Positions 8,993-17,317 of a stretch of DNA of 64,000 bases are shown piece after piece (the first letter of the stretch is position 1; each line of letters opens with the position of its first letter). Position numbers and translations under genes: made by a program. The DNA is from Vicinamibacterales bacterium. Its GTDB lineage: Bacteria; Acidobacteriota; Vicinamibacteria; Vicinamibacterales; 2-12-FULL-66-21. The stretch is from NCBI GenBank assembly GCA_035699745.1, contig DASSPH010000072.1, forward strand, positions 1 through 64,000, written 5' to 3'. The notes beneath the pieces were generated by a model. That model was not told the origin of the DNA. It did no database searches and saw only the letters and a list, made by a program, of their open reading frames with translations.

Positions 8993-9448
8993 TCACTTCA
9001 CGACCAGCGTTCCTTTCATCCCGGACTGATAGTGGCCGGGGAACGAGCAGATGAACGGGTAGCGGCCGGGCTTGGCCGGCGCGGTGAATACCACCTGCAC
9101 CACTTCCCCCGCCCCGGCAAGCGCCGTGCGCGCAATCACGCTGCTCGTCATCGCCGGCGGGATGAAATCGGTGGCGCGGTGCGGCGCCCCTTCCGCGACC
9201 AGCTTGGCCACGTCGGTGCCGATCTTCAGCACCACGACGTTGTGCGCCATCGCGAGCTTGGGAAGCGCACTCTTGACCGTCAGGCGGATCCGGATCTGTT
9301 CACCGGGCCGCGCGGTCAGCGTCGGCACGCTGTATTTCATGTCGTCGGTGGCCACCAGATCGAGCGTGCGCGGCGGATCGGCGGCGGCGCGGGCGGCCGG
9401 GCCGGAAGCGGAGGCGAGGACCAATATGAGAGCGGCGCAGAGTCGCAT
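8993..9448 (-). CDS. Azurin/plastocyanin-like type 1 copper protein
   Basis: A 151-residue periplasmic cupredoxin with a signal peptide (residues 1-22). Type 1 copper ligands are visible: His69 (MAHNVVVL) and the C-terminal Cys134-x4-His139-x4-Met144 (ICSFPGHYQSGM), the azurin pattern. It would carry electrons in the periplasm, plausibly to nitrous oxide reductase encoded nearby. The start at 9448 has AGGAG about 10 bp upstream; an in-frame start at 9529 would cover the regulatory palindrome. The TATGAC-N4-GTCATA box centred 74 bp upstream is well placed to activate it. Confidence 0.88.
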   Translation of the reverse strand: MRLCAALILVLASASGPAARAAADPPRTLDLVATDDMKYSVPTLTARPGEQIRIRLTVKSALPKLAMAHNVVVLKIGTDVAKLVAEGAPHRATDFIPPAMTSSVIARTALAGAGEVVQVVFTAPAKPGRYPFICSFPGHYQSGMKGTLVVK

Positions 9449-9514
9449 GATGAGATCTCCTCGGAAAAAAGAACTGGCGTCCTGGCTAGCCTGCACCGGC
9501 GGCGGCGGCTGCGC

Positions 9515-9530
9515 TATGACGGTCGTCATA
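9515..9530. promoter_or_regulatory. Crp/Fnr-type box (TATGAC-N4-GTCATA) between azurin and crp
   Basis: TATGAC-GGTC-GTCATA, an inverted repeat with 6-bp half-sites around 4 bp, the geometry of FNR/DNR-family operators. The same half-sites recur at 16531-16546 upstream of nosZ and ric. For azurin, a class II site at -41.5 would put the start near 9481. For the crp gene the box overlaps a -10-like TACAAT (9529-9534), so binding should repress it. Confidence 0.7.
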
Positions 9531-9541
9531 CAATCGTCGGA
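9529..9541 (+). promoter_or_regulatory. Probable -10 of a leaderless crp/fnr-family transcript
   Basis: TACAAT at 9529-9534 is followed 7 bp later by the ATG at 9541, so the transcript would start at or next to the start codon. The hexamer shares bases with the Crp/Fnr palindrome. No convincing -35 is seen. Confidence 0.4.
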
Positions 9542-10239
9542 TGCGCCAGGACGTGGCGGAAGTCGAGGGGATCCTGCGGACGACGCCGGTGTTTCAGCGG
9601 CTGTCGCCCGAGGATCTGCGGACGGTCGCGCAGGCGGCCGCCGTCAAGCGGTACGAGAAGGGACAGGTCCTCTTCGAGCAGGACACGCCGTCGGACGCGT
9701 TCTACACCATTGCCTCGGGCCGCGTGAAGATCTTCAAGCTGCTGCCCAGCGGCAAGGAGGTCATCCTCGAGGTGTTCGGGAAGGGGGATCCGCTCGGCGC
9801 CGTGGCGGCCTATGACGGGCGGCCGTTTCCGGCGAGCGCGATCGCCCTGGAGGACACCGTCTGCGTCGTGATCCCGCGCGCCGTCTTCTTCCGGCTGCTG
9901 GAAGCGCATCCCTCGCTCGTCCGCGGGCTGATGCTCGGCCTGACGATGCGGCTGGTGGAACTGACCAACCGTGTGGCCGATCTGTCGGGGTCCCGCATCG
10001 AGCCCCGCTTCGCGCGGCTGTTCCTGAAGCTGGCCACCGACATGGGGCGCCAGGAGCGCGGCGGCACGTTCATCCCGCTCGCCCTCTCGCGGCAGGAGCT
10101 GGCCGACATGACCGGCACCACCATCGAGACGGCGATCCGGATCATGAGCCGGTGGAACAAGGACGCGATCGTCCACACCGACAAGGACGGGTTCGTCGTC
10201 CTCGATCGCGCCGCGCTCGCCGCCGCGGCGGGCGAGTGA
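9541..10239 (+). CDS. Crp/Fnr-family transcriptional regulator (DNR-like)
   Basis: A 232-residue regulator: cyclic-nucleotide-binding-like beta-roll (about 17-130), dimer helix (130-150) and C-terminal winged helix (about 182-205, SRQELADMTGTTIETAIRIMSRW). The recognition helix keeps the E-x3-R spacing of FNR-type proteins. There is no N-terminal cysteine cluster, so it is not an FNR-type iron-sulfur sensor; a DNR/NarR-like nitric oxide or haem-based sensor fits better. It sits between azurin and the cytochrome c at the end of the nos operon, and the matching palindromes upstream of itself, azurin, nosZ and ric make it the likely regulator of this island. Confidence 0.85.
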   Translation: MRQDVAEVEGILRTTPVFQRLSPEDLRTVAQAAAVKRYEKGQVLFEQDTPSDAFYTIASGRVKIFKLLPSGKEVILEVFGKGDPLGAVAAYDGRPFPASAIALEDTVCVVIPRAVFFRLLEAHPSLVRGLMLGLTMRLVELTNRVADLSGSRIEPRFARLFLKLATDMGRQERGGTFIPLALSRQELADMTGTTIETAIRIMSRWNKDAIVHTDKDGFVVLDRAALAAAAGE

Positions 10240-10250
10240 CCGCGGATCGC

Positions 10251-10685
10251 TCACCGGCCGGGCTCGCTCAGCGATCGGACGTAGGCGACGAGCGCCGCCA
10301 GGTCGTCGCCGTTGATCTGCGGATTGCTCGGCATCAGCGGCTTGCCCCTGATCGCGCCGCCCATCCTGATCACGTCGCCGATCTCCTTGTCGCTCAGCGT
10401 GCTCATGTAAGCGCGATCGGTGTGATCGCGCGGCGGCGGTTTGAGCACCCCGGCGCCGGGTCCGTCGCCCTTGCCGCTCTCGCCGTGACAGGCCGCGCAC
10501 GTCGTCTTGTACAAAGTGCGTCCGCGCTCGAGCGCCGCGGGCGTCGCTTTGGCCGGCGCCGCGGCGGCGGGCGGCGTTTTCCCATTCGGCGGTGCGTCAG
10601 ACGAGCCGTCCTCCGACGCGCACGCAATCGCGGCGGCGAGCGCGCCCACCGACAGCAGCATGACCAACCGTCTTCCTCTCTTCAT
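10251..10685 (-). CDS. Class I cytochrome c of the nos operon
   Basis: A 144-residue exported monohaem cytochrome: signal segment with a possible lipobox (AAIAC, Cys22), an Ala/Pro-rich linker, the haem site CAACH (63-67) and a likely axial Met in GKPLMPSNP (about 118). It is probably an electron donor to NosZ from the quinol pool or bc1 complex. GAGGAGGG precedes the start. The first 89 bases overlap the 3' end of the nosFY gene in another frame, implying tight translational coupling. Confidence 0.85.
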   Translation of the reverse strand: MKRGRRLVMLLSVGALAAAIACASEDGSSDAPPNGKTPPAAAAPAKATPAALERGRTLYKTTCAACHGESGKGDGPGAGVLKPPPRDHTDRAYMSTLSDKEIGDVIRMGGAIRGKPLMPSNPQINGDDLAALVAYVRSLSEPGR

Positions 10686-12201
10686 GACTACGGACCCTCC
10701 TCAGCGGACGTGAAAACGTGACGACTGCCGCGGCCACCGGCACGAGGCTCCAGCCGGCCAGCGCCCCGAGCAGCAGGGCGGCGGCGCCGGCCTGCGACAG
10801 GCGCGCCACGAGAAACGCGCCGGCCGGGCCGAGCAGATAGAGATCCGGCTCGAGCGCGAGCACGCCGAGCACCCGCGCCGCATCGACGGGATTGGCAACG
10901 AGCAGCGCCGAGACCGCCTGCACCGGCAGGCCGCTGAACGCGAGCGTGCCCATCAGCACCAGGTCGTAGAGCAGCACGAACGCGAACCAGACGAACACGG
11001 CCGTCCCCTGCGCCTGCACGCCCGATCGGCTCGTGACCGAGACGAGCAGGCCGATGCCCGCCATGGCGGCGGCGGCGAGCGCGGCGATGACGGGAAAAAT
11101 CAGGTAGTGCGCCAGCATCGAGGGCTCGGCGGCAACCGCGATCAGCACGCCTGCCGGCAGGAAGCCCGCGACGGTGGCGGCCGACACCGCGACCACCAGC
11201 CCGGCGTGCTTCCCGAGCAGCAGCTCCGTCCGCGTGAGCGGCTGCGCGAGCAGGTGCTCGAGCGTGCCGCGCTCCTGCTCGCCGGCGATCGACGCCGCAC
11301 CCATCAACACGGCGACGAGCGGCGCGAGCAGCAGGCACAGGTTCATCAACGTCGCGGTCGTCCGTCCGAACGCCTGCACCGCGAGCCCCGAGGCGCTGTC
11401 GAGCCCGGTGGCAGTGGCGGCGAACCCGAGCGCCGCGAGCAGCGCCGCATAGGCGATCACCCAGCGGTTGGTGATCGCGTCGCGCAGTTCCTTGCGTACG
11501 ATCGGCCGGATGCTGCCGCCCGGCGCGGACGGGAGCGCCGGCGCGCGCTGCGGCCATTCCCGGGTCCCGCGCCGCGTCACCGCGCTGACGCGGCCATCCT
11601 CCAACTGCACCTGGCAGTCGCCGGCCTCGATCAGCTCCTGCCCGGCGTGCGTCGAAACCAGCACCGTGCGCCCTTCGTCGGCCGCGGCCCGCAGGCGCTG
11701 CGCCAGCCATCGCCGGCTGGCGGCGTCGAGGCTCGCGGTCGGCTCGTCGAGCACGAGAATCTGCGGATCCGTGAGCAGCGCGAGCGCGAAGCCGAGACGC
11801 TGCCTCGCACCGCCCGACAGCTCGCCGACCCTGGTCTGCAGGTATCGGTCGAGACCGGCCTCGCTGACCAGCTCGACGCCGCGCTCCACCGAGGCGCGGC
11901 GGATGCCGGCGTAGAACTCGATCGTTTCCTTGACGGTGAGATCCGGGTGCAGCCCGCCGCTCTGCGGCATGTAACCGACCAGCGCGCGCACCGCGCGGCC
12001 GTCGGCCAGCGGATCGAGCCCGCCGATGCGGATCGACCCTTCGAAGCTGGTGATGCCGAGGAGGCAGCGCAGCAGCGTGGACTTGCCGGCGCCGTTCGCG
12101 CCGAGCAGGAGCGTCACTTCCCCCGGATACAGGTCCAGCGAGACGTCGGCGAGCGCCTCACGGCGGCCGTAGTTCTTGCGGACTCCCTCGATCGCAATCA
12201 T
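10597..12201 (-). CDS. NosF-NosY fusion: ABC ATPase joined to its permease
   Basis: A 534-residue protein joining two normally separate nos genes. Residues 1-205 are an ABC ATPase: Walker A GANGAGKS (34-41), signature LSGGARQRL (128-136), Walker B ILVLDEP (148-154), switch His in STHAGQE. After a 25-residue linker, residues 231-500 are a six-helix ABC-2-type permease (KELRDAITNRWVIAYAALL..., ...GEQERGTLEHLLAQPLTRTELLLGK) typical of NosY. With NosD it is needed for copper-site assembly in NosZ. The start overlaps the nosD stop as ATGA with GGAG upstream. The last 35 residues are basic and run over the start of the cytochrome gene. Confidence 0.85.
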   Translation of the reverse strand: MIAIEGVRKNYGRREALADVSLDLYPGEVTLLLGANGAGKSTLLRCLLGITSFEGSIRIGGLDPLADGRAVRALVGYMPQSGGLHPDLTVKETIEFYAGIRRASVERGVELVSEAGLDRYLQTRVGELSGGARQRLGFALALLTDPQILVLDEPTASLDAASRRWLAQRLRAAADEGRTVLVSTHAGQELIEAGDCQVQLEDGRVSAVTRRGTREWPQRAPALPSAPGGSIRPIVRKELRDAITNRWVIAYAALLAALGFAATATGLDSASGLAVQAFGRTTATLMNLCLLLAPLVAVLMGAASIAGEQERGTLEHLLAQPLTRTELLLGKHAGLVVAVSAATVAGFLPAGVLIAVAAEPSMLAHYLIFPVIAALAAAAMAGIGLLVSVTSRSGVQAQGTAVFVWFAFVLLYDLVLMGTLAFSGLPVQAVSALLVANPVDAARVLGVLALEPDLYLLGPAGAFLVARLSQAGAAALLLGALAGWSLVPVAAAVVTFSRPLRRVRSHEERKTVGHAAVGGRARRRDCVRVGGRLV

Positions 12202-14027
12202 CGCAGCACTCCGTTCACGGTCATGAGCGGGCGCTCGTCGACCAGCACCGGCGGCTGGCGGAAGAGCGGAAACAGGCGCGCCGCCGCCTCGAGCGCGAGA
12301 TGCGCCGGCGTATAGAGGAACGCCTGCGTCATCGGACTGCGCCGGATGAGAGCGTCGAGCGCGTCTTCGACGCGGTGCGGCTGATCGCCGATGCCGTCGC
12401 CGTCCGCGTCGTAGCCGCGATAGGCGCTCCAGGAATTGCCGCGGCCGTCCCGCGTCCACCGCATGCCCGCCGACAGCTGCCGTCCCAGCGGACGAACGTC
12501 GGCGAGGTTCTCCGCGATGCGGTTGCGTGTCAGGGTCAGCGCCGCGGTGCTCTGCAGCGCCAGGCCGGTCTCGTTGCCGGCGATGAGATTGCCGGCGAAC
12601 ACCGCTTCGCCGGTCCCGTCCGCCGGAACCGATTCGGCGTAGATGCCGACGCGATTGGCGACGATGTGATTGTCTTCCGCGATCAGCCCGCCGATGTCCT
12701 TCAACAGCACGCCGTAGGCGGCAGGGCCGGCCCGGTGCTCGCGGATGCGATTCCCTTTGAGCACCAGGCGGTCCGACATCATCAACGCGGCGCCGAGCAG
12801 ATTGGCGGCAGCCTCGTTCCCCTCGAAGCGCGCCTCGTGCGAATACATCGAGTGCAGGCCGTAGCGGCAGCGCGTCACCCGGTTGCCCGTGACCGTCACC
12901 CGATCGGTGAACGAGAGATAGATGCCGTCGCGGGCGTCGGCAATCTGGTTGGCGGCGATCTCGCTGTCGCGGAGATGCCAGGCGCTGATGCCATGGCCGG
13001 GGCGCGCGCCGTGCCGCTCGCCGGGAACGATCCGGTTGCCGCGCACGGTCACGTACGATCCGTTGCCGAGGTGGATGCCGAAATACACGTCGCGCACGTC
13101 GTTCTGCTCGATGCGGTGGCCGTTGCCGGTGGCCTTGATTCCGGCCGCCTCCTCGGTGACGTCGCGCCCGCTGTTGCGCACCGCGAATCCGCGGAAGGTC
13201 ACCTGGTCGCCCGTGATCGTCACCACGCTCCCCCTGCCGCCGCCGTCGATGGTGACGGCCCCCTCGGCGGTGAGCGTGAGCGGCCCGCGAATGGCAATCG
13301 GGCCCGCGTAGTGGCCGGCGGGCACGACGACCGTGGCGCCGCGCGGCGCGGCGTCGATGCGCGCTTGGAGCGCGCCGGCGGATTGTGCCGACAGCTGCGC
13401 CGGTCCGAGCAGGAGCACGGCCAGCCCCGCGGCGACGCCCAGGCCGGCGTCCCTGCTCGGGCGGGTGCCCCGGCGCAGGAAGCCGTTGCTGATGCGCTCG
13501 GCGAGGACGAGCAGCACGGCGGCAGCCACCAGGCTCCAGAAGCCCCACGACACCATCCCGTGCGACTCGAAGTTCCCCATGTGCGTCTCGCCGAGCACGA
13601 GCGGCGTGAACGGCTTGAGGCGGATCGGCGCTTTCGGATCGAGGCTGTGGCCGAACGAATAGAGGCGCCACTGCAGATCCGCCAGGATCGACAGCGGCAC
13701 CGCCACCGTCGCCGCCACCGCCGCCCGCCGGACCCACCGGTGCAGCGGCGACAGCAGGGTCAGCGCCAGCAGAAAGGCGATGCCGATCGGGAACAGCGAC
13801 GTCTCGAGCGCCGGCGCTTCGATCGGCGGCATGCCGATGTAGTGGTTGAGGATGCTCAGCTCGCGGACGTCGCCGGTCATCCCGGTGCCGAAGACGTGCA
13901 GGAACAGGCCGTGGCGATACTGCGGGGCCTCCATCTTCAGCGTCCACAGCGGCAGCTGCGTCGACAGTCCGATCAGCGCCGCGGCGGCGGCGGCGACCGA
14001 GAAACGGATCGCGCGTGCGGATCTCAT
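12198..14027 (-). CDS. nosD: NosD fused to an N-terminal four-helix membrane domain (NosB-like)
   Basis: A 609-residue protein. Residues 1-180 hold four predicted transmembrane helices (about 9-25, 78-96, 102-119, 158-177) with a conserved-looking loop KMEAPQYRHGLFLHVFG...LNHYIGMPPIE. In clade II nos clusters a separate membrane protein, NosB, usually stands near nosZ, and this half may be its equivalent. A fifth hydrophobic stretch (195-213, ending AQLSAQ) looks like the old NosD signal peptide. Residues 215-605 are the NosD right-handed beta-helix (repeated NRI, GNxI and NxI turns) that helps deliver or assemble NosZ copper. It overlaps nosL and nosFY by ATGA. Confidence 0.87.
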   Translation of the reverse strand: MRSARAIRFSVAAAAAALIGLSTQLPLWTLKMEAPQYRHGLFLHVFGTGMTGDVRELSILNHYIGMPPIEAPALETSLFPIGIAFLLALTLLSPLHRWVRRAAVAATVAVPLSILADLQWRLYSFGHSLDPKAPIRLKPFTPLVLGETHMGNFESHGMVSWGFWSLVAAAVLLVLAERISNGFLRRGTRPSRDAGLGVAAGLAVLLLGPAQLSAQSAGALQARIDAAPRGATVVVPAGHYAGPIAIRGPLTLTAEGAVTIDGGGRGSVVTITGDQVTFRGFAVRNSGRDVTEEAAGIKATGNGHRIEQNDVRDVYFGIHLGNGSYVTVRGNRIVPGERHGARPGHGISAWHLRDSEIAANQIADARDGIYLSFTDRVTVTGNRVTRCRYGLHSMYSHEARFEGNEAAANLLGAALMMSDRLVLKGNRIREHRAGPAAYGVLLKDIGGLIAEDNHIVANRVGIYAESVPADGTGEAVFAGNLIAGNETGLALQSTAALTLTRNRIAENLADVRPLGRQLSAGMRWTRDGRGNSWSAYRGYDADGDGIGDQPHRVEDALDALIRRSPMTQAFLYTPAHLALEAAARLFPLFRQPPVLVDERPLMTVNGVLR

Positions 14028-14464
14028 CGGCGTTCTCCCCTTCGCTGCAACAGCCCGCCCAGCGTCGCCACGGCTTCTCCGCGGTGCTGCCGCGCGGCGG
14101 CGGTGGCCGACGCCAGGTCGCGGTAGGCGAGAATGCCGCCGCCCATCGGCGTCCGGATGGCGGGCGAGACGGCGAATGCCGCGACGCTGCCGTCGATCCA
14201 CCCGCCGTCCGCCGCATCGTGAAACCAGAAGCGCATCGTGCGCCTCTCCTCTTTGCGCGCCGCGGCGACGAGGCAGCCGATGTCGTCGAACACTCGCGCG
14301 TCCGAATCGGCGGCCTGGTACGCCGCGGCGTAGATCCGCTCGCTGATCAACATCCCGCAGTGGCTGCAGGCGCTGCGATCGATCTCGATCGCCGGCGGAC
14401 CGTCGGCTGCCGTCCGGCAACCGGCGGCGGCGAGCACCGCGAAGACGATGAACGCGAGACGCAT
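14024..14464 (-). CDS. nosL: NosL copper-binding lipoprotein
   Basis: A 146-residue outer-membrane or periplasm-facing lipoprotein with lipobox LAAAGC (Cys16) and the NosL hallmark C-S-H-C-G-M (Cys33, Cys36, Met38), which binds Cu(I) for delivery to NosZ. It follows nosZ by 7 bp and overlaps nosD by ATGA, so it is within the nos operon. Its ribosome-binding site (GAGG) lies across the nosZ stop codon. Confidence 0.9.
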   Translation of the reverse strand: MRLAFIVFAVLAAAGCRTAADGPPAIEIDRSACSHCGMLISERIYAAAYQAADSDARVFDDIGCLVAAARKEERRTMRFWFHDAADGGWIDGSVAAFAVSPAIRTPMGGGILAYRDLASATAAARQHRGEAVATLGGLLQRRGERR

Positions 14465-14471
14465 CGGAGCC

Positions 14472-16466
14472 TCACTTCTCGACGATCAGCCAGCCCTGCA
14501 TCTCGAGATGCAGCGCCGAGCAGAATTCCGTGCAGTAGAAGGAGTAGGTGCCCGGCTTGTCGGCGGTGAACTCCACCGTCGTCGTCTCGCCGGGATCGAG
14601 GCTGACCATGACGTTCTTGGTCGGGACGGCGAAGCCGTGCGTCGCGTCCGGGGTCGATTCCGCGTTGGTGAGATGGACGATGACCTTGTCCCCCACCTTG
14701 GCGCTGACGATGTCGGGCGTGAAGTGGCTGCGCACCACGTTCATCCAGACTTCCACCACGCCCGGGCGGCGGACGATGCGCGCTTCCTTCTCGCCGGCGA
14801 TCGAGTCCGGCGACTTGCGGTTGGACGCGGGGGACACGCCGGCCTGGTAGACCTCGTGCGCCTTCAGCGTGTCGGCCTTGATCAGCTGCGCGTAGTGCGG
14901 CTCGCCGAACCCGATCGGCATGTCCGCGAGCAGCTCCATCTTCGGACCGGAGATGTCGATCAGCTGGAAGTTCTGCGGATGCAGCGGGCCGACGTTGGTG
15001 TGGCGATCGATCGACCACTTGTTCATCGCGATCAGGTACTTGCCCTGCGGATCCATCGTGTCCCCCTGCGTCGTGGCGAGGTGGCCGATGTTGTAGTGGA
15101 TCGAGACCTTGTCGACGAGCTTGAACGCCTGGTCCTTCGGATGGTACGGCTCGCCGAGCGTCCACTTGGCGACGGCGCTCTCGAGATACAGGCTGGTGTA
15201 GGCGTTCCCCTGATTGTCGTACTGCGTGTGCAGCGGGCCGGCGCCGAGCTCCACCTTGCCGGCGACCACCGCGTCGAACTTGAGGATCGGCACGCCGTAG
15301 CGGTCCTTGCCCTCGAAGGTGCGCGCCTCGATGGCCTTCTTGATCAGATCGATGCTGTAGACCGTGGCGTGCGGATCGAGCTTGCCGGCGACGGTGATGT
15401 AGTCCCCCTTCGGCGCGATGTCGACGCCGTGCGGGCTGCGCGGCTCGGGGGCGAGATACAGCACGCCTTCGGCGATCGCGGTTTCCAGCGGGATGACGCG
15501 GATGCCGTTCAACTCGGTGAACTTGCCGGCGCCGACCACCTGTTCGGCCTTCTTCCAGTTGATGATGTGCAGGTAATCGAAGTCGAGCTGCGAGGCGCCG
15601 ACTTCAATCGGCGGCTTGCCCTGCTGGATGCCGCCGGTCGCCATCTCGACGTTGTACGAGTTGATGAAGGCGAAGCCGTCGCTCGCCCCCTTGCCGGCGT
15701 CCGCCAGGTCCTGCGTGTACGGCGGCAGCTCGATCTGGAAGCTCTTCGCCAGGTCCATCCGCCCGGTCTGGGGGTCGACGGAGACGAAGGTCGAGTAGCC
15801 GCGATAGATGTCGGCGTAGCGATTGAGGTGGTCGTCCAGCGTGACGGTCTGGCCGCGGCTGGCGTTCCAGGCCTTCAGCGCCGGCACCTTCGACGAGATG
15901 TGCACGTACTGCGTGTCCGGCGTCGCGAAGATGCCGCCGTGCGAGGTCTGCAGGTTGGGCACCTGCAGGATCTGCTTGGCGCGGAAATCGGAGAGGTCGA
16001 CCATGCCGATCCGGCCGTGCGCGCGATCGTTGATGTAGAGCCAGCGGCCGTCGTACTTGCCGCCGGTCTCGCTGAGCGCCGGATGGTGCGAGTCGCCCCA
16101 GCGGAGCGGTTCCTTCGTCCCCTGGCCCGCCAGCGCCATCTCCGACCAGTCGGCGCCGTAGCCGTAGCCCTGCCACGGCTCGGGGGTGAAGACCGCGATC
16201 GTCTTCATCAGGCGCATCGAGGGCACGCCGATCACGTGCACCTGCCCGGAGTGGCCGCCGGACGCGAACAGCATGTATTCGTCGCGGCCGCCGGGCGGCA
16301 CGAACGTCTTGATCGCGCGGGCGGCGTCCTCGGGCGCGAGGCCGCGCGACTGCGCGAGAGCCAGCAGCTGGGCCTGTCCGCCGACCGCGGACCGCCGGCT
16401 GCACGCACCGATCGCCGCCGCCGCGATCAGCGTCAGCGTTATTCCCAGCAGCAACACTTTCTTCAT
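14472..16466 (-). CDS. nosZ: Nitrous oxide reductase, clade II (atypical) NosZ
   Basis: A 664-residue periplasmic enzyme reducing N2O to N2. The N-terminus is Sec-type, with a possible lipobox (AIGAC, Cys22), not the Tat type of clade I. The motif DSHHPALSETGGKYDG has the clade II pattern. Residues 40-550 form the CuZ beta-propeller (His in SHHP, TSHGG, DRH, GEPHY); the C-terminal cupredoxin carries the CuA ligands in CTEFCSALHLEM (Cys645, Cys649, His653, Met656). The ATG at 16466 has GGAGG 7 bp upstream. It heads the operon nosZ-nosL-nosD-nosFY-cytochrome c; no nosR or nosX is present, as usual for clade II. Confidence 0.95.
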   Translation of the reverse strand: MKKVLLLGITLTLIAAAAIGACSRRSAVGGQAQLLALAQSRGLAPEDAARAIKTFVPPGGRDEYMLFASGGHSGQVHVIGVPSMRLMKTIAVFTPEPWQGYGYGADWSEMALAGQGTKEPLRWGDSHHPALSETGGKYDGRWLYINDRAHGRIGMVDLSDFRAKQILQVPNLQTSHGGIFATPDTQYVHISSKVPALKAWNASRGQTVTLDDHLNRYADIYRGYSTFVSVDPQTGRMDLAKSFQIELPPYTQDLADAGKGASDGFAFINSYNVEMATGGIQQGKPPIEVGASQLDFDYLHIINWKKAEQVVGAGKFTELNGIRVIPLETAIAEGVLYLAPEPRSPHGVDIAPKGDYITVAGKLDPHATVYSIDLIKKAIEARTFEGKDRYGVPILKFDAVVAGKVELGAGPLHTQYDNQGNAYTSLYLESAVAKWTLGEPYHPKDQAFKLVDKVSIHYNIGHLATTQGDTMDPQGKYLIAMNKWSIDRHTNVGPLHPQNFQLIDISGPKMELLADMPIGFGEPHYAQLIKADTLKAHEVYQAGVSPASNRKSPDSIAGEKEARIVRRPGVVEVWMNVVRSHFTPDIVSAKVGDKVIVHLTNAESTPDATHGFAVPTKNVMVSLDPGETTTVEFTADKPGTYSFYCTEFCSALHLEMQGWLIVEK

Positions 16467-16496
16467 CACTCGCCTCCGTTCAGCGGACGACTGTTT

Positions 16497-16546
16497 TCAG
16501 TGGAGTATTCGCCGCCGCGGCGCGCCCGCCTATGACGCGCGTCATA
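16497..16546 (-). promoter_or_regulatory. nosZ promoter, class II Crp/Fnr architecture
   Basis: On the minus strand a -10-like AATACT spans 16509-16504. A start 7 bp on, at 16497, would place the TATGAC-GCGC-GTCATA palindrome (16531-16546) centred at exactly -41.5, the standard class II activator position. The leader would be about 30 bases. There is no -35 match, consistent with dependence on an activator. Confidence 0.65.
16531..16546. promoter_or_regulatory. Crp/Fnr-type box (TATGAC-N4-GTCATA) between nosZ and ric
   Basis: TATGAC-GCGC-GTCATA is a perfect 16-bp palindrome with the same half-sites as the box at 9515-9530. It lies 56 bp from the ric start and 64 bp from the nosZ start and could serve both. 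For ric a class II start would fall near 16580, just before the GAGGGA ribosome-binding site; the -10 there (around TGTTAC) is weak. Confidence 0.7.
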
Positions 16547-16594
16547 CGCGGCGCAACTCGGTCCTGTTACCGTGGCGCGCAGAGGGAAACACCC

Positions 16595-17317
16595 ATGCAC
16601 TTCACAGGCGATTCGACAATCGGCGACATCGTCGCCGAGGATTTCCGCACGGCTGCCGTGTTCCAGCAGTTCGGCATCGACTTCTGCTGCGGCGGCCGCC
16701 ACACCCTTGCCGAGGCGTGCCGCGAACGGAATGCCGACCCCGAGGCGGTCCTCGCCGCGCTGACGCGGAGCTGCAGCGCCGCCGGGACCGCGCCGAAGTT
16801 CGACGCGTGGTCGCCGGAGACGCTCATCGGCTACGTCGTGGGCACGCATCACGCCTACGTCCGGCGCGCGCTGCCGACGCTGCTGGCGCACACCCGCAAG
16901 CTGGCGGCGGCGCACGGCACCAACCATCCCGAGCTGCACGAGGTGATGCGGCTGGTCGAGCAGGTCGCCGGCGAAATGACCTCGCACATGGCCAAGGAAG
17001 AGCAGATCCTGTTCCCCTACATCGCCGAGATCGCCGAGGCCGCAGACGACGGCCGGGCCGCGCCGCGCGCCCCGTTCGGATCGATCGACAACCCGATCGC
17101 GATGATGGAGCGCGAGCACGAAGACGCCGGCGCGGCGATGGCGGAGATCCGCCGGCTCACGGGCGGCTACACCGTCCCGGCGGACGGCTGCACGACCTAT
17201 CGCGTCACCTTCCGCGAGCTCGAAGCGTTCGAGAGCGATCTGCACACGCACGTGCACCTCGAGAACAACATCCTGTTCCCCAAGGCCCGGCGCCTGGCGG
17301 AGGGCCGCCGCGCCTGA
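16595..17317 (+). CDS. RIC-type iron-sulfur cluster repair protein (YtfE/ScdA family)
   Basis: A 240-residue di-iron protein. Residues 1-60 are the ScdA N-terminal domain with the FCCGG motif (Cys31-Cys32); residues 75-235 are a hemerythrin-like four-helix bundle with His and Glu ligands (GTHHAYVRR, HMAKEEQILFPYI, EREHEDAG, HTHVHLENNILFPKA). The family restores Fe-S clusters damaged by nitric oxide or oxidants and may release NO-bound iron. Divergent placement from nosZ and a shared palindrome fit a role in nitrosative stress. GAGGGA lies 7 bp before the ATG; an in-frame start at 16532 would sit inside the palindrome. Confidence 0.9.
   Translation: MHFTGDSTIGDIVAEDFRTAAVFQQFGIDFCCGGRHTLAEACRERNADPEAVLAALTRSCSAAGTAPKFDAWSPETLIGYVVGTHHAYVRRALPTLLAHTRKLAAAHGTNHPELHEVMRLVEQVAGEMTSHMAKEEQILFPYIAEIAEAADDGRAAPRAPFGSIDNPIAMMEREHEDAGAAMAEIRRLTGGYTVPADGCTTYRVTFRELEAFESDLHTHVHLENNILFPKARRLAEGRRA

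Follow-up and report, generated by a model that had tools for sequence, protein, structure and literature searches.

The 64,000-nucleotide stretch analysed here (the window), from contig DASSPH010000072.1 of a Vicinamibacterales bacterium, carries a nitrogen-oxide island with two copies of the palindrome TATGAC-N4-GTCATA. One copy lies between divergent genes for an azurin-like protein and a CRP/FNR-family regulator (crp), and the other between the divergent genes nosZ and ric. The boxes, the genes beside them and the predicted promoter elements are listed below. Offsets are counted in base pairs (bp) from the box edge, and with the promoter hexamer taken as -12 to -7, an offset of +37 or +38 puts the box centre at -41.5 or -42.5, respectively.

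9515-9530, no strand: box 1, TATGACGGTCGTCATA, between azurin and crp
9541-10239, plus strand: CRP/FNR-family regulator of 232 amino acids (Pfam cNMP_binding and HTH_Crp_2), the predicted binder of both boxes
9529-9534, plus strand: TACAAT, a -10-like hexamer of a predicted leaderless crp promoter, identified by sequence, overlapping box 1 and beginning 12 bp before the crp ATG
8993-9451, minus strand: azurin-like cupredoxin of 152 amino acids (Pfam Copper-bind; NCBIfam azurin 58.9 bits, below the cut-off of 105.1)
9488-9493, minus strand: CAGGCT, a weak -10-like hexamer for azurin, assigned by geometry, +37 from the box edge (-41.5)
16531-16546, no strand: box 2, TATGACGCGCGTCATA, between nosZ and ric
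14472-16466, minus strand: nosZ, Sec-dependent nitrous-oxide (N2O) reductase (TIGR04246 781.8 bits, cut-off 625), which we take to be equivalent to clade II
16504-16509, minus strand: AATACT, predicted nosZ -10, +37 from the box edge (-41.5), with the same hexamer and spacing in two relatives (G113 and G011)
16595-17317, plus strand: ric, ScdA/YtfE-type iron-sulfur repair di-iron protein of 240 amino acids, with its ATG at 16595 (TIGR03652 239.4 bits, cut-off 204.7)
16568-16573, plus strand: TACCGT, predicted ric -10 from sequence and class-wide spacing, +37 from the box edge (-41.5)

These two exact copies stand alone in the window, as a sequence-only reading of this DNA had claimed, all remaining sites having at least three mismatches. 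Matches with up to three mismatches numbered six against a chance mean of 4.64; since this is chance level, only the two exact boxes carry weight within the window. Rather than being common and unlinked, the motif was also rare in the whole genome (6,304,472 bases), which contained two exact and two one-mismatch sites, with none in the reversed control. Counts at up to two mismatches (17 sites vs. 16 in the control) amounted to noise, and the weaker palindromes with two or three mismatches, in both window and genome, were discarded because their counts were at chance level.

Contig C30 carries both one-mismatch sites, at positions 16114 and 18350, a distance of 2.2 kb. Each has a +37 hexamer on the side of its gene (CATACT and GATACT), compared with one of the 11 sites examined among the 13 with two mismatches, and all four genomic sites with at most one mismatch precede genes with a hexamer at this offset. 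One of them is upstream of genes for a methyltransferase, a 67-amino-acid protein of no assigned family and a weakly COX1-like membrane protein (20.5 bits, below the cut-off of 34.8). The second is upstream of a radical-SAM protein (NF045502, 204.7 bits; cut-off 125), in a group that also encodes a NarK-family transporter (TIGR00886, 222 bits, below the cut-off of 311.7), a molybdopterin oxidoreductase whose nearest family is NasC (760 bits, short of the cut-off of 1100) and iron-sulfur, Rieske-type and Fur/PerR-like proteins, each below the curated cut-off of its best NCBIfam match. The NarK and NasC similarities suggest that the molybdopterin oxidoreductase is a nitrate reductase. At L005:11717-13978, next to the NasC-like molybdopterin oxidoreductase, a NarK-family transporter is prolonged at its C-terminus by a long membrane region (753 amino acids in total).

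The box and the regulator occur together across the 193 sampled genomes of the class. Orthologs, defined as matches with at least 52% identity over nearly the full length, below which an identity gap follows, were present in 65 genomes, and at E <= 1e-20 the genome of the window itself yielded a single match. Two genomes without the box, G099 (60% over 84 residues) and G100 (47% over 139 residues), gave partial matches and were scored as having no ortholog. The exact box was found in 63 genomes at 165 sites, against two control sites. Ortholog and box were both present in 57 genomes, the ortholog alone in eight, the box alone in six and neither in 122, so that 57 of the 65 ortholog-bearing genomes had the box, compared with 6 of the other 128 (Fisher's p = 5e-33). 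Counted by genus, the corresponding figures were 37, 4, 4 and 59, that is, 37/41 vs. 4/63 (p = 4e-19).

The distance from the box to the putative promoter is fixed. This was read in 155 of the 165 class boxes, the other ten being, by count, in G155 (3), G169 (4), G171 (1) and G172 (2). A column analysis that assumed no promoter gave A at +38 and T at +42 as the strongest positions once the box and the bases bordering it were set aside; T at +37 was weaker. Among the 310 orientations, TAnnnT began at +37 in 62 and at +38 in 22, the mean elsewhere being 0.53, and AnnnT occurred at one of these two offsets on at least one side of 136 of the 155 boxes (control offset pairs: mean 17, maximum 28). 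After removal of similar flanks, 90 of 143 remained at +37. The class-wide spacing recurs in the window at nosZ (AATACT), at ric (TACCGT) and, in weak form, at azurin (CAGGCT). The sequence-only reading had placed the nosZ box at -41.5 from a start predicted by AATACT; this hexamer, read from 16509 to 16504 on the minus strand, indeed starts 37 bp from the box edge, and the same spacing dominates in the relatives. A centre at -41.5 is the classic class II activator position at CRP/FNR promoters, and the boxes at -41.5 or -42.5 would thus occupy it if the hexamer is the -12 to -7 element. By target, the spacing was found at 5/5 nosZ, 21/22 ric and 15/15 FAD/iron-sulfur oxidoreductase genes; toward crp-type genes it was found in 1 of 16 cases, and on their opposite side in 14 of 16. 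This pattern is read as class II activation of the targets combined with repression of the regulator.

The promoter predicted for crp is consistent with such repression. TACAAT overlaps box 1, and 6 bp separate its end from the crp ATG. Of 47 orthologs, 15 had TAnnnT at 12 bp upstream of the assumed start codon and 27 had it within -15 to -12, and only seven had a Shine-Dalgarno-like 4-mer. The gene thus appears leaderless in many of these genomes, and we infer that the crp messenger RNA is leaderless and repressed by its own product. The proposal of one regulon comprising azurin, crp, nosZ and ric is supported across the 193 class genomes with one amendment: because box 1 covers the predicted leaderless promoter, crp is probably repressed rather than activated.

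The regulator has the domain order of the CRP/FNR superfamily (PF00027, 88.3 bits; PF13545, 57.2 bits; both above cut-off), reaching the superfamily definition and falling below every equivalog cut-off, including those of NCBIfam Fnr (51.9 bits vs. 228) and CRP (56.2 bits vs. 266). Its AlphaFold single-chain model had a predicted local distance difference test score of 89.4 and a predicted template modelling (TM) score of 0.61, and a fold search with this model matched GlxR, CRP, DNR and FNR, at whole-chain TM values of about 0.5 with an unreliable domain arrangement. The closest solved structures, by sequence and by fold, were GlxR (87.5 bits in phmmer) and mycobacterial CRP. As the sequence-only reading had noted, a cysteine cluster such as that of FNR is lacking: the single cysteine among the 232 residues, C108, is kept in 42 of 48 orthologs and could matter for sensing. 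CRP contacts cyclic AMP (cAMP) through E72, R82 and S83. These residues are not conserved, the equivalents in our alignment to CRP being A87, P97 and A98 in 46, 47 and 48 of the 48 orthologs, respectively. Sensing of nitric oxide (NO) by this protein is plausible.

The 48 orthologs share a nearly invariant recognition helix, TT(I/V)ETxIR. In the same alignment, Ile stands at the position of CRP R180 (I195; 45/48, with Val in 3/48), Glu at E181 (E196), Ile at G184 (I199) and Arg at R185 (R200), the last three in 48/48. The 193-genome comparison supports the suggested altered recognition specificity, and the regulator would have its own DNA code. Outside the class, 40 exact sites were found in 32 of 350 genomes against 21 control sites (hand count), and because this excess is only about twofold, a phylum-wide regulon is not claimed. 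Even so, the box was more frequent there where a strong homologue was present (9 of 26 genomes) than elsewhere (23 of 324; p = 1.5e-4). Of the 32 box-bearing genomes, 14 were examined; eight of these had a homologue with the TT(I/V)ETxIR helix (39-58% identity), and G372 (STETAIR) and G523 (TTTETAIR) had variants of it. In G169, which has five boxes but lacks a closer ortholog, a 41% homologue retains this type of helix. G169, G171 and G172 (L205-L207) belong to one genus with four sampled members; these three have two to five exact boxes each, and the genus has no close ortholog.

To identify targets in the relatives, one plausible gene per box side was picked by codon-position score, and the 290 picks were clustered and their representatives searched with Pfam and NCBIfam. 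The largest clusters were ric (22), crp-type genes (16), the FAD/iron-sulfur oxidoreductase (15) and a diheme cytochrome c (14), followed by two radical-SAM clusters (11 and 5), cytochromes c (7 and 6), a 4Fe-4S membrane protein (6), nosZ (5), hemerythrin-PAS (4), COX15 (4), a COX2-like protein below cut-off (4) and NorB (2). Clusters of three included a multicopper oxidase, a cytochrome b/iron-sulfur protein, CopD, fasciclin and an alginate-export porin, some of the three-member clusters having no clear link. Singletons made up 95 of the 290 picks, and many of them are probably not true targets.

In the window, nosZ is followed on the minus strand by the rest of the nos gene run:

14024-14464, minus strand: nosL, downstream of nosZ (Pfam NosL 32 bits, cut-off 24)
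12198-14027, minus strand: nosD, downstream of nosL (TIGR04247 340.1 bits, cut-off 300)
10597-12201, minus strand: nosF-nosY fusion in a single 534-amino-acid reading frame (Pfam ABC_tran, the ATPase, at residues 17-156; ABC2_membrane_2, the permease, at 234-498)
10251-10685, minus strand: c-type cytochrome that closes the run (Pfam Cytochrom_C)

The box directly precedes nosZ in G000, G113, G011, G092 and G096. The class contains 41 nosZ matches in 40 genomes; of 30 loci examined for an upstream box, four had the exact box (G000, G113, G011 and G092), with G096 as a fifth case, which rules out that nosZ always has the box directly upstream. In 11 genomes (G001, G064, G086, G097, G101, G102, G103, G111, G115, G146 and G148), the exact box instead heads a one-strand run about 5.1-5.8 kb upstream of nosZ, consisting of the FAD/iron-sulfur oxidoreductase, in most cases a gene at the Rieske position, cytochrome b, cytochrome c and nosZ. 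The families of this run were scanned in G148 and assigned in the other ten by position and sequence start. The runs (L300:275-7240; similar in L301, L302 and L304-L311) suggest a bc-like electron route to the N2O reductase. In G066, one gene separates the box from nosZ. G110 was dropped from the count, as a gene on the opposite strand lies between the box and nosZ; closer to its nosZ, a divergent intergenic region upstream of the gene contains two one-mismatch boxes 114 bp apart (L303:2733 and L303:2847), of which the second has CAGCCT at +37 in the nosZ direction. In G011, the box and AATACT are intact, but the nosZ behind them (L272, match from 1131; 84% identical) has one in-frame TAG, which may reflect a sequencing error or decay of the gene.

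From the boxes and their rarity, the fixed spacing of the -10 hexamer, the joint occurrence of box and regulator and the conservation of the helix, we infer binding, the sign of regulation and the signal as follows. With a probability of roughly 0.87, the local CRP/FNR regulator acts at TATGAC-N4-GTCATA, activating nosZ, ric, azurin and the C30 groups in class II fashion and repressing its own gene. A regulator dimer would bind the palindrome and, centred at -41.5 at nosZ, ric, azurin and the two C30 groups, recruit RNA polymerase. Activation would switch on N2O reduction, iron-sulfur repair, the group with NarK and the molybdopterin reductase, and electron carriers. At box 1, which covers the predicted leaderless promoter, the active protein would repress crp while activating the divergent azurin gene. 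The signal is probably NO, another nitrogen oxide or low oxygen.

Several observations weigh against this interpretation. Eight of the 65 ortholog-bearing class genomes lack an exact box (a one-mismatch site occurs in seven of the eight, two also matching the control), and six box-bearing class genomes lack an ortholog at 52% identity or more; in a profile search of five of these, three had nothing at E <= 1e-15. Beyond the class, the exact box is missing from 17 of the 26 genomes that have a strong homologue. Two of the 17, G302 (TTIET) and G483 (TTLET), nevertheless have this type of helix, so that the helix does not guarantee an exact box, and in 4 of the 14 box-bearing genomes examined (G240, G251, G404 and G216) no such helix was found among the homologues detected. 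The azurin -10 is weak, and the 16 crp-type boxes include those of paralogues (e.g., G081, at 36% identity). Finally, an exact box could be placed at nosZ or a run head in only 17 of the 40 nosZ genomes, 16 of the 32 with an ortholog and one of the eight without; in the remaining 23, no exact box was placed at either position, contig ends possibly accounting for some.

Some of these gaps would fit real operators that are bound by another CRP/FNR paralogue or an unrelated factor, with the adjacent crp being merely a target. Six box-bearing class genomes lack the ortholog, and 23 of the 32 box-bearing genomes outside the class have no strong homologue. However, the genus-level co-occurrence (37/41 vs. 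4/63), the single match in the own genome and the helix retained in diverged homologues of 8 of the 14 genomes examined all favour the local regulator, and with 40 sites against 21 in the control, many of those 23 genomes are expected by chance. A different binder thus appears improbable. A regulator that acts mainly as a repressor, whose boxes block promoters until a signal releases the protein, would account for the box lying over or beside the predicted promoter toward crp-type genes. A repressor needs no fixed distance, whereas the targets show a single one (+37/+38) upstream of the -10, which is the classic position of a class II activator; we consider this explanation slightly less probable still. 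That two similar palindromes arose without regulatory meaning would agree with the chance frequency of matches at two or three mismatches, but it is already contradicted by the 165 exact sites vs. 2 control sites in the class and their positioned -10 hexamers, and is extremely unlikely.

Sites of the CRP/FNR superfamily are palindromes with a TGA-N6-TCA core. TATGAC-N4-GTCATA contains this core and is thus a site of the superfamily type, likely to be bound by such a protein. FNR shares the fold and its activator geometry, -41.5, as here; the present regulator differs in having no N-terminal cysteine cluster and in scoring far below the NCBIfam Fnr cut-off. CRP and GlxR are the closest solved structures by sequence and fold, but the equivalent of R180 is Ile and the cAMP-contact residues are not conserved. 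The classic FNR/DNR box, present in 131 of the 193 class genomes, showed no link to the regulator by eye and was set aside. With at most one mismatch allowed, the window contains a single FNR/DNR-type box, the exact copy TTGATACGAATCAA at 212-225, a long way from the nitrogen-oxide genes.

DNR resembles the regulator in the proposed target class (nos and related genes) and in having no iron-sulfur cluster, and a solved DNR structure is related to it (71.1 bits in phmmer). The DNR box, however, is TTGATnnnnATCAA in the relevant passages of Rodionov et al. (2005; PMC1274295), and the site here is TATGACnnnnGTCATA. The "DNR-like" label of the sequence-only reading is thus apt merely by analogy: the iron-sulfur cysteine cluster is missing, but the box is a different one. 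NnrR is likewise a CRP/FNR regulator of denitrification genes, with a different box, ctTTGcgnnnncgCAAag, in the same passages (PMC1274295). HcpR, described there from delta-proteobacteria and two cyanobacteria, is similar in belonging to the CRP/FNR family, lacking an iron-sulfur cysteine motif and controlling nitrogen-oxide and redox genes. Its box, wyTTGACnnnnGTCAArw, has TGACnnnnGTCA and the spacing in common with ours (PMC1274295). The two differ at the base before TGAC (T in HcpR, A here) and at CRP position 180 (Ser/Pro in HcpR, Ile here; Rodionov et al. 2005 for HcpR). The combination of a TTGACnnnnGTCAA site with Ser/Pro at 180 was not found, residue 195 being Ile in 45 and Val in 3 of the 48 orthologs.

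Open-access literature searches on the motif, the lineage and nosZ regulation returned no description of the box or regulon, although subscription journals lay mostly outside these searches and such absence is not proof. Bacteria with this nosZ type are thought to be important N2O sinks. We lean, by a small margin over even odds, toward a separate CRP/FNR subfamily, found in about one third of the sampled class genomes and scattered in a few other lineages of the phylum, that would be the dedicated regulator of N2O reduction in many of these bacteria and would sense its signal without an iron-sulfur cluster or cAMP. Its own helix-to-box code would consist of Ile 180, Glu 181, Ile 184 and Arg 185 reading T-A-TGA-C, and one palindrome would have opposite effects to its left and right, activating the divergent respiratory gene in class II fashion and repressing the leaderless messenger RNA of the regulator itself. 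Residues 180 and 181 correlate with box bases in the CRP/FNR family (Rodionov et al. 2005; PMC1274295). The combination of Ile with A is absent from the residue-base pairs in the passages of that study considered here, and Ile at 180 with A in the box would add a further pair to the published correlation (PMC1274295). With a short operator and a fixed promoter geometry, the regulon could be predicted from sequence in relatives that have perhaps never been cultured.

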